Shown here: one piece after another, positions 57,242 to 64,000 of the stretch
How positions within the stretch are numbered: position 1 is the first letter of the stretch
How the letters are laid out: the number at the start of each line of letters is the position of its first letter
Position numbers and translations under genes: made by a program
Notes under the pieces: generated by a model
The model's input: the letters and a program-made list of their open reading frames with translations, nothing else
What the model was told of the DNA's origin: nothing
Databases searched by the model: none
DNA from: Afipia sp. 1NLS2
GTDB lineage: Bacteria > Pseudomonadota > Alphaproteobacteria > Rhizobiales > Xanthobacteraceae
DNA length: 64,000 nucleotides
Direction: 5' to 3'
Assembly (NCBI RefSeq): GCF_000178995.1
Contig: NZ_ADVZ01000006.1
Coordinates: forward strand, 62,001 to 126,000

Positions 57242-57558
57242 CGTTTTATTCCTTCGTGTTCGATCCCGGCGCTCGGACAGGTCCGGGCCGGCTTCTTGTT
57301 CAGTCGTTATGGGTTCACTTGTCGATGCAGGCGCAGACAGGCCGCGCACGAGCAAAAACAAACGGCGCGAAATCCTCCGCGCCGGGTGGGTGACTTATAG
57401 CCGCGAAAGCCCCCGAGTCAAGGCAATCGGCCCGCCAAATCGGCCAAAATCGAAGGAAAATCAGCCGATTCCGGGCATTTTGGGGGCTTCCGGCGATGCA
57501 ACTATTGGGTTTCCCCGCCATTGACCCCGGCACATCCGGAGCAGGGGCACCTCATCAT
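57242..57558. other. Divergent promoter region between rplU and the ROK-like gene
   Basis: A 317-base region without a gene. It should hold the rplU-rpmA promoter and the ROK-like gene promoter. No site could be assigned by eye. Frames of 60-70 codons in it lack ribosome sites. Confidence 0.5.
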
Positions 57559-58701
57559 ATGTCGGAAGAGAACCGCACGGTCGGCATCGGCAACCATGGC
57601 GCCTCCCGGCTGCCGTCCGTCGAGGTCGACAGCTACAATATTGAATTGAAGGACGAGGACGGCTTTCTGGGTGACCGCGCCAGCAAGGGAGCTTTTCAGG
57701 ACATTCTGGAGGCGTGGCGGAAGCCATTAAAGAAGAGCGGCGACGACCCATTGGGCGGCAAGTCCTCCGAAGACCTCGGCAAGAAGAAGCTCGACGAGAT
57801 TCTGGTCGGCGACGATATCGAGGCTGCGGCGGTGCTACACAGCGCGATCGAGGAATTCGCGCAGGAGCTTGCTTTCGTCACCCGCCGCTTTCTCAAAAGC
57901 AAGGCGTGGGAGAAGACCGAGGCCATCGTGGTCGGCGGCGGCTTCCGGCAAAGCCGGATCGGCGAACTCGCCATCGCGCGCACCGACATCATTCTCAAGG
58001 CCGAAGGATTGAAGGTGCAGATGGTGCCGATCCGGTTCGATCCGGACGAGGCGGGGCTGATCGGCTGCGCGCATCTGGCACCGTCATGGATTTTTGAAGG
58101 CTACGACAGCCTTCTCGCCGTCGATATCGGCGGCAGCAACATCCGCTGCGGCGTGGTCGAGACGTTGCAGAAGAAAGCGCCCGATCTGGCCAAGGCGCGG
58201 GTGTGGGCGTTCGAGTTGTGGCGTCATGCCGACGATGAGCCGACGCGCGAAAGCGCAGTGAAGAAGCTCGTGAAGATGCTCAAGGATCTTATCGCGAAGG
58301 CGGGAGCCGAAGGCTTGAAGCTTGCGCCGTTCATCGGCGTGTCGTGTCCTGGCGTGATCGACGCCGACGGCGCGATCGAGAAGGGCGCCCAGAATCTGCC
58401 AGGCAACTGGGAAAGCAGCCGCTTCAATCTGCCTGCGATTCTGGTGGAGGAAATTCCAACGATCGGCGATCACGACACCGTGGTGCTGATGCACAATGAT
58501 GGCGTTGCGCAGGGCCTGAGCGAAATCCCGTTCATGCAGGATTACAAGCGCTGGGGCATCCTCACCATCGGCACCGGGCTCGGCAATGCGCGTTTCACCA
58601 TGCGCAACGATAAAAAGAGCGCCGAGAAGAAGAACGGCGACAAAAAGAATGGCGACAAGAACGGAGGCAAAGAGAAGGACAAAGACAAAAAGAAATCCTG
58701 A
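57559..58701 (+). CDS. ROK-family-like sugar kinase/regulator with circularly permuted domain order
   Basis: The 380-aa protein starts at ATG 57559. Normally ROK proteins run from DIGGT (phosphate-1) through CPG..D, a catalytic ND, GTGxG and a zinc site to a C-terminal GGG...AGLIGAA block. Here the order is reversed: TEAIVVGGGFRQSRIGEL and DPDEAGLIGCAHL come first (about 121-173). LLAVDIGGSNIRCGVVE (about 186-202), SCPGVIDADG (262), MHNDGVAQG (311) and LTIGTGLGN (335) follow, and the chain ends 10 residues later, apart from a Lys/Asn/Gly/Asp-rich tail (about 349-380). No GHxxxCxCGxxGC zinc site is present. Substrate is unknown. Confidence 0.75.
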   Translation: MSEENRTVGIGNHGASRLPSVEVDSYNIELKDEDGFLGDRASKGAFQDILEAWRKPLKKSGDDPLGGKSSEDLGKKKLDEILVGDDIEAAAVLHSAIEEFAQELAFVTRRFLKSKAWEKTEAIVVGGGFRQSRIGELAIARTDIILKAEGLKVQMVPIRFDPDEAGLIGCAHLAPSWIFEGYDSLLAVDIGGSNIRCGVVETLQKKAPDLAKARVWAFELWRHADDEPTRESAVKKLVKMLKDLIAKAGAEGLKLAPFIGVSCPGVIDADGAIEKGAQNLPGNWESSRFNLPAILVEEIPTIGDHDTVVLMHNDGVAQGLSEIPFMQDYKRWGILTIGTGLGNARFTMRNDKKSAEKKNGDKKNGDKNGGKEKDKDKKKS

Positions 58702-60697: not shown

Positions 60698-62170
60698 TTG
60701 GCGATGTCAGGCTCTGATATTTCTCTTCAAATATGGGAGGCCGTCAGCGGCGCTCCCGTCGTGGCGACGAATATTCCTGCGCGGCTCGATGCGCTGTTAT
60801 GGAGTCCGTTTCATACCCGCGTCATCGCAGCTCTCGGTATCACCTGGATTCTCGATGGCCTCGAGGTGACGCTGGCGGGCTCTTTGGCCGGTGCGTTGAA
60901 GCAATCGCAGACGCTGCAGTTCAGCAATCTCGATATCGGTCTGGCATCCAGCGCCTATCTTGCGGGCGCGGTGCTTGGCGCACTCGGCTTCGGCTGGCTC
61001 ACCGACCGCATCGGACGGCGGAGGCTGTTCTTCATCACGCTGGCGCTTTATCTGCTCGCCACGGCGGCCACGGCTCTGTCGTGGAATATCGCAAGCTATG
61101 CCACGTTCCGTTTTCTCACCGGCGCGGGTATCGGCGGTGAATACACCGCGATCAATTCGACCATTCAGGAATTGGTGCCCGCGCGCTATCGCGGCTGGAC
61201 GGATCTCGTCGTCAACGGCAGCTTCTGGCTCGGCGCGGCGCTCGGCGCGGTGGGCGCGATCGTGCTGCTCGATCCGGCCGTAATTGATCCCGACATCGGC
61301 TGGCGGTTCGCGTTTCTGATCGGCGCGATCCTGGGCCTCGTGGTGTTCGTGATGCGGTTCTGGATTCCCGAAAGCCCGCGCTGGCTGATGGTGCACGGTC
61401 GCCCGCAGGAAGCGGAGCGGATCGTGCAGGAGATCGAACGCCATGCGCGGCCTGCGCGGGAGCATGACGGGGAATTGCCCGCGATCAGGCTGCGGATGCG
61501 CGATCACACGCCGCTGCGCGAAGTCGCGCACACGCTGTTCGTCACTTATCGCCCCCGCGCGCTGGTCGGTCTCGTGCTGATGGCGGCGCAAGCGTTCTTC
61601 TACAACGCGATCTTCTTCACCTTCGCGCTGGTGCTGACGGATTTCTTCCATATTCCGGCGGATCATGTCGGCTGGTACATTCTGCCGTTCGCCGCTGGAA
61701 ATTTTCTCGGCCCGCTGTTGCTGGGGCGGCTGTTCGATACGCTCGGCCGCCGCAGGATGATCGCCTTCACCTATGCGATCTCGGGCATTCTCCTGATCGT
61801 TACCGGCTATCTGTTTTCAATCGGCGCGCTGACTGCCACGCAACAGACATTGTGCTGGATGGTGGTGTTCTTCTTCGCCTCGCCGGCGGCGAGTGCCGCG
61901 TATCTGACGGTGAGCGAAACCTTTCCGCTGGAGGTGCGTGCGTTGGCGATCGCGCTGTTCTATGCGATTGGCACCGCGATCGGCGGCGTCGCCGGGCCGT
62001 CTCTGCTCGGCGCGCTGGTCGATACCGGCTCGCGCGCCAGCGTATTTGCAGGCTATCTTTTCGGCTCATTATTGATGATCGTTGCCGCTGTTGTCGCATG
62101 GCGGTTCGGCATCGACGCCGAGCGCAAACCGCTCGAAACTGTTGCGCGGCCACTGGCTATCGCAGAATAG
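60698..62170 (+). CDS. MFS transporter, sugar-porter type
   Basis: The 490-aa protein has 12 predicted transmembrane helices, motif A GWLTDRIGRRRLFF, RFLTGAGIGGEYTAI, and the sugar-porter IPESPRWLMVHGR after helix 6. It probably imports a sugar or organic acid. It stands between the amidase and otsB, with 20 bases to otsB, so it may be co-transcribed with the trehalose genes. Confidence 0.92.
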   Translation: MAMSGSDISLQIWEAVSGAPVVATNIPARLDALLWSPFHTRVIAALGITWILDGLEVTLAGSLAGALKQSQTLQFSNLDIGLASSAYLAGAVLGALGFGWLTDRIGRRRLFFITLALYLLATAATALSWNIASYATFRFLTGAGIGGEYTAINSTIQELVPARYRGWTDLVVNGSFWLGAALGAVGAIVLLDPAVIDPDIGWRFAFLIGAILGLVVFVMRFWIPESPRWLMVHGRPQEAERIVQEIERHARPAREHDGELPAIRLRMRDHTPLREVAHTLFVTYRPRALVGLVLMAAQAFFYNAIFFTFALVLTDFFHIPADHVGWYILPFAAGNFLGPLLLGRLFDTLGRRRMIAFTYAISGILLIVTGYLFSIGALTATQQTLCWMVVFFFASPAASAAYLTVSETFPLEVRALAIALFYAIGTAIGGVAGPSLLGALVDTGSRASVFAGYLFGSLLMIVAAVVAWRFGIDAERKPLETVARPLAIAE

Positions 62171-62190: not shown

Positions 62191-62991
62191 ATGATGACGA
62201 AGATTGAAACTCGCGCTTTATTGCCCTCCTATCCGGATTCGGATCATCCGGTGTTCTCGCCTTTGCTCGAGGACTGCGCTTTTCTGCTCGACATCGACGG
62301 CACGTTGCTCGATCTTGCGCCGACGCCGGGCGCGGTCGTGGTTCCACCGGGCCTCGCGGAAGCATTGAGCGGACTGCATATGCGGACCGACGGTGCGCTC
62401 GCTCTGGTGAGCGGCCGCTCGCTTGCCGATATTGACCGTATTTTCAACCCGATGCTGTTGCCTGCCGTAGGCGGTCACGGTGCGGAGATGCGGATGTCGG
62501 TCGACAGCGAAGCCGATGCTGTGCACGCGCCGCCGATGGACAAGGATCTGAAGAAGCGCTTTGCCGCGATCGGCCACCTCGATCCGCGCATCATCGTCGA
62601 GGACAAGGGCTATTCAATCGCGCTGCATTATCGCCAGGCGCCGAATTGGGAACGCGCGATTTATGATGCGGTTGCGGCCATTCGCGCGGACCTGCCGGAA
62701 GCGCCGATCGACGTGCTGCCGGGGAAATCAGTGTGCGAGATCAAGAATTCCGGCATCAGCAAGGCGACCGGTGTGAAGGAACTGCTCAAGCACGAACCGT
62801 TCGCGGGCAGGCGTCCGATTTTCATCGGCGACGATATCACCGATGAAAGCGTTTTTGCGATCATGCCGGATTTAAAAGGCGTTTCATTCTCCGTCAGTCG
62901 TCATGCGCATGGCGTCGATGGTTTTTTTGCAATGCCTGCGGATGTCAGGCACTGGCTCGCGAGCCTGCTTGACGATTCAGTGGCAGATTAA
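62191..62991 (+). CDS. otsB: Trehalose-6-phosphate phosphatase
   Basis: The 266-aa HAD phosphatase has the DxD motif FLLDIDGTLLDLAPTPG, GGHGAEMR, Lys in NSGISKATGVKELL and IFIGDDITDESVF. It removes phosphate from the OtsA product to give trehalose, an osmo- and stress-protectant. ATG 62191 is followed by a second ATG. Confidence 0.97.
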   Translation: MMTKIETRALLPSYPDSDHPVFSPLLEDCAFLLDIDGTLLDLAPTPGAVVVPPGLAEALSGLHMRTDGALALVSGRSLADIDRIFNPMLLPAVGGHGAEMRMSVDSEADAVHAPPMDKDLKKRFAAIGHLDPRIIVEDKGYSIALHYRQAPNWERAIYDAVAAIRADLPEAPIDVLPGKSVCEIKNSGISKATGVKELLKHEPFAGRRPIFIGDDITDESVFAIMPDLKGVSFSVSRHAHGVDGFFAMPADVRHWLASLLDDSVAD

Positions 62992-63188
62992 AATTTCTTT
63001 AGAAATTTCCGGCCGGAATTTTTTCGGCAAGTCAAGATTGAAACAGATGCGAAATCCTCCCACTCTCAAGGCTCTTTCGAGAGTTCCATCGGCGCTTGCC
63101 ACAGTCTTGCCGTCAAATCCACAAAGCAGCACTTAGGAACCATATTGATGAACAGACGTTTATCTGTGCGTCAAACGGAGTGTTCCCT

Positions 63189-64000
63189 GTGACATTGGTG
63201 GTCATATCCAACCGCGTGGCTCGGGCGAAGCCGAACGAGCCGATGACGGGAGGCCTCGCGGCAGCATTGTTGCCGGTGGTGGAAAAATCCGGTGCGATCT
63301 GGGTAGGGTCCAGCGGTCGTGTCCGCGACGGACAACAGCGGGAACCTTTCGCGCAAATTGAATCGTTGGGCCGCGGCGCGCTGGCCCTGCTCGATCTGCC
63401 GGCCGCGCATTACGGCGGCTATTACGAAGGCTTCGCCAATTCGGCGTTGTGGCCTGCGCTGCATTCGCGTTCCGATCTGATCCGCGTTTCCCAGGACGAT
63501 TATGACTCCTATCGCGAGGTCAATGCGTTCATGGCCCGCGCGCTGCTGCGCTTCCAGAAACCCGACGTGACTTTCTGGGTGCAGGATTATCATTTCCTCG
63601 CGCTGGGCGCGGAATTGCGCAAACTCGATGTGAAAAATCCGATCGGATTTTTCCTCCACACGCCCTGGGCGCCGCACAATGTCATGTCGGGCGTGCCGCA
63701 TCATCGCGAGCTGATCGAGACGATGCTCGCCTATGACCTGATCGGTTTCCAGACCGATGAGGATTGCGAGAATTTCGCGGGCTACCTCACTCTGGAACTG
63801 GGCTACACGGTCAAGAACGGCATGGTGCGCTCGCATTTCGGGCTGACGCGGCTCGCCGCGTTCCCGATCGGCATCGATGTCGAGGGCTTCACCGCGCAGG
63901 CGATGCGCGCCATCTCGCATCCCGACGTGTCACGGTTGCGCAAGAGCCTGCATGGTGAGCGTCTTGCGATCGGCGTCGACCGGCTGGATTACTCCAAGGG
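63189..64000 (+). CDS. otsA: Trehalose-6-phosphate synthase (3' end outside the window)
   Basis: 270 codons are visible. Start GTG 63189, with GGAG 8 bases upstream. VISNRVARAK...GGLAAALLPVV, FWVQDYHFLALGAELRK, IGFFLHTPWAP, FQTDEDCENFAGYL and GVDRLDYSKG are GT20 motifs binding UDP-glucose and glucose-6-phosphate. It lies 200 bases after otsB, a common pairing. The C-terminal half lies outside. Confidence 0.97.
   Translation, partial: MTLVVISNRVARAKPNEPMTGGLAAALLPVVEKSGAIWVGSSGRVRDGQQREPFAQIESLGRGALALLDLPAAHYGGYYEGFANSALWPALHSRSDLIRVSQDDYDSYREVNAFMARALLRFQKPDVTFWVQDYHFLALGAELRKLDVKNPIGFFLHTPWAPHNVMSGVPHHRELIETMLAYDLIGFQTDEDCENFAGYLTLELGYTVKNGMVRSHFGLTRLAAFPIGIDVEGFTAQAMRAISHPDVSRLRKSLHGERLAIGVDRLDYSK

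Follow-up and report, generated by a model that had tools for sequence, protein, structure and literature searches.

The gene of Afipia sp. 1NLS2 that starts at position 57559 of contig stretch NZ_ADVZ01000006.1, 62,001 to 126,000 (64,000 nucleotides, called the window below), raises the question whether a sugar kinase of the ROK family can exist with its two halves exchanged. An earlier note, made from the letters alone, had pointed out that the blocks that close ROK proteins precede those that open them. The translation of the gene confirmed this order: the closing blocks GGG and AGLIG, within IVVGGGF at residues 123-129 and DPDEAGLIGCAHL at residues 161-173, stand ahead of the opening blocks DIGG, ND and GTGLGN, with AVDIGGSNIRCGVV at residues 187-200, SCPGVIDADG at 262-271 and MHNDG at 311-315. 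The gene start is supported because homologues start at about the same position, and an in-frame ATG 5' of it at 57496 lacks conservation.

For the family, 157 permuted entries were drawn from 166 loci. Left out were L143 and L147 (no start found), L150 and L024/L025 (partial), and L023, L159, L160 and L163 (no qualifying frame). Several loci are the same gene obtained via two collections, and 84 remain at 90% identity. Of these, 67 were picked by hand for profile A2 and 65, all diverse permuted members, for profile A3. Profile A4 represents canonical ROK proteins and was built from 21 of 30 canonical loci, chosen for a CxCGxxGC motif and a clear start, so that it contains the zinc motif by selection.

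In native order, hhalign aligned residues 10-179 of A3 with ROK positions 152-301 of A4 (E 1.4e-5) and, non-collinearly with this match, residues 185-348 with ROK 2-141 (E 7e-5). Rotation at residue 184, the best of 19 cuts, gave one alignment over ROK 1-302 with an E-value of 5.7e-9 and a score of 68.5, i.e., homology over both halves of the ROK domain. Cuts at 140-180 scored 63-67, the remainder 41-46, and the maximum of 40 column-shuffled controls was 24.0. The unrotated family matched a tandem-doubled canonical profile collinearly across the junction (154-445 of 608, E 1.8e-9), and a match in one piece is what an origin by duplication and trimming predicts. One caution applies: when the canonical profile was divided into two parts, rotation gave a full-length alignment but no rise in score. 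In the family, homologous blocks are thus exchanged around a conserved cut site, and the canonical linear order (DxGxT, ND, GTGxG, zinc loop, GGG, AGxxG) is not found. When single sequences were searched with hidden Markov models at a loose threshold (independent E-value up to 1 for 1000 sequences), the N-half was matched in 100, the C-half in 33 and both halves in 26 of the 157 entries. All 26 had the permuted order and none the canonical one. The motif order GGG, DIGG, HND, GTGLGN was present in 157 of 157 entries, which had been picked with a permuted profile.

The AlphaFold2 model of the window protein (predicted local distance difference test score, pLDDT, 90.4; predicted template modelling score 0.87) predicts a chain that folds as one two-lobed ASKHA-type kinase. 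Its two halves were compared separately. Rows 1-29 of the 50 rows of the VIA comparison are ROK-type kinases or repressors, some of them presumably so, and in these rows model residues 175-184 to 348-350 lie on the first ROK half. Their values (Z 9.6-13.4, root-mean-square deviation 1.9-3.5, identity 14-27%) are better on all three measures than those of the normal-order rows. The comparison by halves was partly weak, and Foldseek with the N-half of the model alone gave no match below 0.001. Among solved structures, a single-sequence search with the window protein returned nothing below E 0.2, and a PDB search with profile A2 found GNE kinase (E 2.7e-4), 4htl (E 0.0085) and 2aa4 (E 0.14). For the canonical kinase 4htl, query segments 185-202, 307-350 and 123-172 fell on chain residues 5-22, 98-143 and 240-286 (each below 10 bits), and 2aa4 was also matched by segments in permuted places.

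Taken together, these results support the proposal of the earlier note that the gene encodes a relative of ROK sugar kinases that arose by natural circular permutation, and the profile matches and shuffled controls place the exchanged order beyond chance. It is a permuted relative rather than a ROK member; the latter label was avoided because the order, the zinc motif and the Pfam cut-off were tested and the protein conforms to none of them. PF00480 matched the window protein only in the second half (ROK 2-135), with 18.1 bits against a curated cut-off of 22.9, partly because the halves are permuted. A PF00480 search of its own genome at E 0.001 gave no match, not even to the window gene itself. 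Of the relatives, 64 of 65 matched at E <= 0.01 (best 1.2e-12). The NanK model of NCBIfam was matched weakly near its end, with residues 105-174 on model positions 219-286 of 288 (11.5 bits, E 0.16).

The catalytic motifs of ROK kinases were retained. D189, N313-D314 and T339 were kept in 65/65 aligned members of A3, and the phosphate-1, catalytic ND, phosphate-2 and adenosine motifs were invariant in the same set. The zinc motif of ROK proteins, GHx9-11CxCGx2G(C/H)xE (excerpts of PMC2742894), is absent. Neither ExGH nor the zinc cysteines (CxC..C) occur in any of the 157 entries, and even the looser CxCx2-6(C/H) was found in 0/157. His13 and Asp39, both invariant in the 65 members, lie near the lost site and may replace part of it; His13 is a possible stand-in for the canonical zinc/sugar His, with which its alignment is inexact. 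Alignment and model support that the new termini lie at the canonical ExGH/zinc region, which would have been lost or rebuilt.

The earlier note had the chain stop directly after GTGLGN without a zinc block. The loss of the zinc loop was borne out, but 37 residues follow GTGLGN in the window protein, mostly a Lys-rich tail. In 54 of the 157 family entries, no more than 15 residues follow GTGLGN (minimum 6), compared with 155-199 residues beyond the phosphate-2 loop in 15 canonical ROK proteins and in the Glk of the same genome as the window (of 22 sequences in this count, five lacked the pattern and one had a misplaced match). Contrary to what had been suggested, the Lys-rich tail does not belong to the permutation: its length varies, and tails of more than 25 residues occur in 67/120 entries from close relatives and in 2/37 others.

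Phosphate transfer from ATP to a sugar 6-hydroxyl is probably retained, because the protein has preserved its phosphate-1, phosphate-2 and adenosine motifs and the catalytic Asp. NagK becomes inactive when its base, D105, or its metal ligand, D6, is mutated, and the sugar is bound by E154 and H157 (excerpts of PMC10031466). Most simply, the protein would be a working kinase whose sugar pocket has been rebuilt. Its substrate may differ from glucose or N-acetyl-hexosamines, because the C-lobe half of the pocket has changed. A dead enzyme, one of the options in the earlier note, is unlikely, because the catalytic motifs are invariant in 65 members and selection is purifying.

The permuted form was found in four overlapping samples. 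Among the window's relatives, 24/41 genomes had a match, including its own genome and two with fragments only, and most matches were nearly full-length. In the order sample it was 61/397 genomes (four with fragments only), in the class sample 16/385 and in the phylum sample 24/398, seven of the last lying outside the class (five strong and two very weak matches). The permuted form is no isolated case: of 141 genera sampled in the order, 19 have it. Afipia, Bradyrhizobium, Rhodopseudomonas, Tardiphaga and Nitrobacter are among the named relatives at the 80 best loci. Among plasmids, 207 records matched, chiefly of Rhizobium and Sinorhizobium; at 30 of the 50 listed records a gene was annotated, 26 times as 'ROK family protein' and four times as 'hypothetical protein'. 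In Bradyrhizobium sp. 195 one permuted copy lies on a conjugative plasmid. Two genomes of the window's family each carry two full permuted copies (L111 and L161 in G218, L112 and L162 in G195), and two genomes of its genus have fragment-only matches (L024/L025 in G011, L023 in G018). A crude count of the ratio of nonsynonymous to synonymous substitution rates (dN/dS) against eight relatives gave 0.05-0.13, which points to purifying selection on the gene.

Downstream of the window gene, between 59023 and 64000 and on the same strand, lie an amidase and then a major facilitator superfamily (MFS) transporter, otsB and otsA (Table 1). In Bradyrhizobium diazoefficiens, otsC (MFS) is upstream of otsB, and trehalose-6-phosphate genes including otsCB are under EcfG control (excerpts of PMC8092242). 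An otsB gene lies no more than 5 kb away from the permuted gene in 10/58 genomes, versus 0.139 expected from genome sizes and gaps entered by hand from genome listings, and in 4/20 families; in the window's family the count is 2/10, and genomes from the same family cannot be treated as independent. The gene that diverges from the permuted one is otsB on R. johnstonii pRL10, on R. ruizarguesonis pTA1_2 and in the Roseateles-labelled XES5. A gene of about 600 amino acids that by eye resembles glycoside hydrolase family (GH) 15 (glucoamylase/trehalase type) accompanies otsA/otsB at L207, L232, L203, L208 and L210, in two other families, which suggests a trehalose turnover cluster.

In some records, further neighbours are of stress type, among them ferritin-like and Hsp20 genes in Bradyrhizobium sp. 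195 and, in S. meliloti, a peptidase for the osmoprotectant N-acetylglutaminylglutamine amide (NAGGN). In L200 (NZ_CP084753, Roseateles sp. XES5, UNVERIFIED_ORG), Ku/LigD repair genes and otsB are found in the vicinity of the permuted gene; the Roseateles label is in doubt because the locus is close to alphaproteobacterial loci. A defence gene was considered, and PADLOC gave no match.

The EcfG promoter of R. etli is GGAAC-N16-CGTT (PMC3892343). Four patterns were tried on the 150 bp upstream of the gene. The strict form GGAAC-N16-17-CGTT was present in 10/34 loci outside close relatives, 2/50 within and 24/2520 controls; the looser GGAAC-N16-18-GTT in 13/34, 3/50 and 31/2520, respectively. 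Here 50 of the 84 loci, chiefly from Bradyrhizobium, Afipia and Rhodopseudomonas, were assigned to the close relatives according to locus number, and one of the other 34 (L153) belongs to the window's own family by database grouping. An earlier scan of 300 bp with a slightly different pattern gave 16/84 loci versus 29/1680 controls. In relatives, both the linked genes and the promoter motifs point towards trehalose synthesis and the general stress response of Alphaproteobacteria. The 150 bp upstream of the window gene itself contain neither the strict nor the looser motif, and the suggested stress and trehalose role is therefore confined to the family and not extended to the window copy.

Table 1. 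Positions in the window of the permuted gene, its motifs and the linked trehalose genes.
Feature	Position	Strand	Remarks
Permuted ROK-like kinase gene	57559..58701	+	380 aa plus stop; homologous starts
ROK C-terminal-half equivalent (canonical ROK profile 152-301)	residues 10-179, 57586..58095	+	profile comparison
His13	57595..57597	+	invariant in 65/65 aligned family members (A3)
GGG 126-128, adenosine-binding loop (near canonical ROK end)	57934..57942	+	invariant in 65/65
AGLIG 165-169, start of canonical ROK closing helix	58051..58065	+	L167, G169 invariant in 65/65
ROK N-terminal-half equivalent (canonical ROK profile 2-141)	residues 185-348, 58111..58602	+	profile comparison
DIGG 189-192, phosphate-1/Mg motif	58123..58134	+	D189, G191, G192, N194, R196, G198 invariant in 65
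CPG 263-265, then conserved GAQNLPGNW loop (276-284)	58345..58353	+	A3 alignment of 65 members
Asn313-Asp314, sugar contact and predicted catalytic base	58495..58500	+	invariant in 65; aligned with ND of 2yhy, 6q26
GTGLGN 338-343, phosphate-2 loop	58570..58587	+	invariant in 65; shortest members stop 6 residues on
Lys-rich tail 350-380	58606..58698	+	low pLDDT; length varies across family
MFS sugar transporter (otsC-like), linked trehalose cluster	60698..62170	+	PF00083
otsB, trehalose-6-phosphate phosphatase	62191..62991	+	PF02358; 3.5 kb downstream
otsA, trehalose-6-phosphate synthase	63096..64000	+	PF00982; extends past window edge

Three other explanations were weighed. An artefact of assembly, annotation or frameshift, or a decaying pseudogene, could account for the fragments in the two genus genomes and in four of the 61 matching genomes of the order sample; it was rejected as hardly credible, since the gene is a single open frame with start and stop positions conserved in many genera and a dN/dS of 0.05-0.13. 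The likeness of residues 10-179 could also reflect the general lobe repeat of ASKHA proteins (RNase H-like units) in an N-terminal fusion without any permutation. This is very improbable, as the N-half matches ROK specifically at 152-301 with GGG and A-G-L-I-G in register, rotation yields one alignment over ROK 1-302, and the ROK-type VIA rows beat those in normal order. An unrelated N-terminal fold was likewise rejected on sequence by the profile comparison, the rotation and the shuffles.

The strongest competitor, although unlikely, is a permuted protein that is no kinase, i.e., a regulator that senses a sugar or sugar phosphate, or a binder of ATP or sugar without turnover. ROK proteins include repressors, a glucokinase would duplicate Glk, and the canonical sugar contacts of the zinc/ExGH region (E566, H569 and E588 in GNE; excerpts of PMC2742894) have a conserved counterpart in 0/157 entries. 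Yet none of the 65 members deviates in the catalytic Asp or in either phosphate loop, and a search for a DNA-binding domain was negative, with ROK as the sole Pfam match to the window protein at E values of up to 1. The best explanation as a whole is a permuted ROK-relative kinase linked to stress and trehalose, with a probability of roughly 0.75.

Most likely, tandem duplication of an ancestral ROK gene was followed by a cut, and translation would now start just past the phosphate-2 loop (GTGxG) of the first copy and stop just past that of the second. As its most likely role, although tentatively, the kinase would phosphorylate glucose or a related sugar or osmolyte and thereby feed or recycle trehalose-6-phosphate when cells face osmotic stress or desiccation. 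Somewhat more speculatively, an ASKHA sugar kinase may have been permuted once, lost its zinc-dependent sugar site and been kept as a stress enzyme for a new trehalose or osmolyte substrate, the cut at the old zinc loop having opened the pocket. The permuted gene is a candidate for a step in the stress-linked trehalose metabolism of soil and nodule bacteria.

The permuted ROK form looks like a genuine rearrangement of a well-known enzyme family that has apparently not been described before. It is fixed in a conserved family that spans many genera and, where an annotation exists, is mostly named 'ROK family protein'. This suggests that the fold of ROK proteins can accommodate new termini within the substrate-binding region. 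We know of no other ASKHA permutation. Among the matches listed for the open-licence PMC literature there was no report of a permuted ROK, ASKHA, sugar kinase or hexokinase; the excerpts of PMC1976428, PMC7824862, PMC10326533 and PMC11046441 treat other subjects and contain no permuted ROK/ASKHA kinase, and the main text of a 2025 review of the glucose kinase superfamily (PMC12696579) has no word beginning with 'permut'. Circular permutation can connect kinase families that belong to the same fold group (excerpts of PMC1079889).

With ROK kinases (PF00480; human GNE/NanK 2yhy, bacterial NanK, NagK and BglK) the window family shares phosphate-1, phosphate-2, ND, GGG, AGLIG and the two-lobed fold, but its halves are swapped, the zinc motif and ExGH are absent, and its termini lie in the zinc-loop region. 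The top NCBIfam match of the window protein is the polyphosphate/ATP glucomannokinase (1WOQ; NF045942), with 27 bits on residues 186-345 and matches to 57/65 members at E <= 0.01; this is far under the model cut-off of 250, and the glucomannokinase order is canonical. The EcfG-controlled otsCB-otsA locus of B. diazoefficiens (PMC8092242, the main text of which does not contain the word ROK) has in common with the window the MFS transporter, otsB and otsA, located here 2-6 kb downstream. GH70 glucansucrases, compared with GH13, are unrelated to the window family in fold and chemistry, but they are, according to excerpts of PMC11046441, likewise sugar-active proteins with a natural permutation in which the catalytic motifs were kept.
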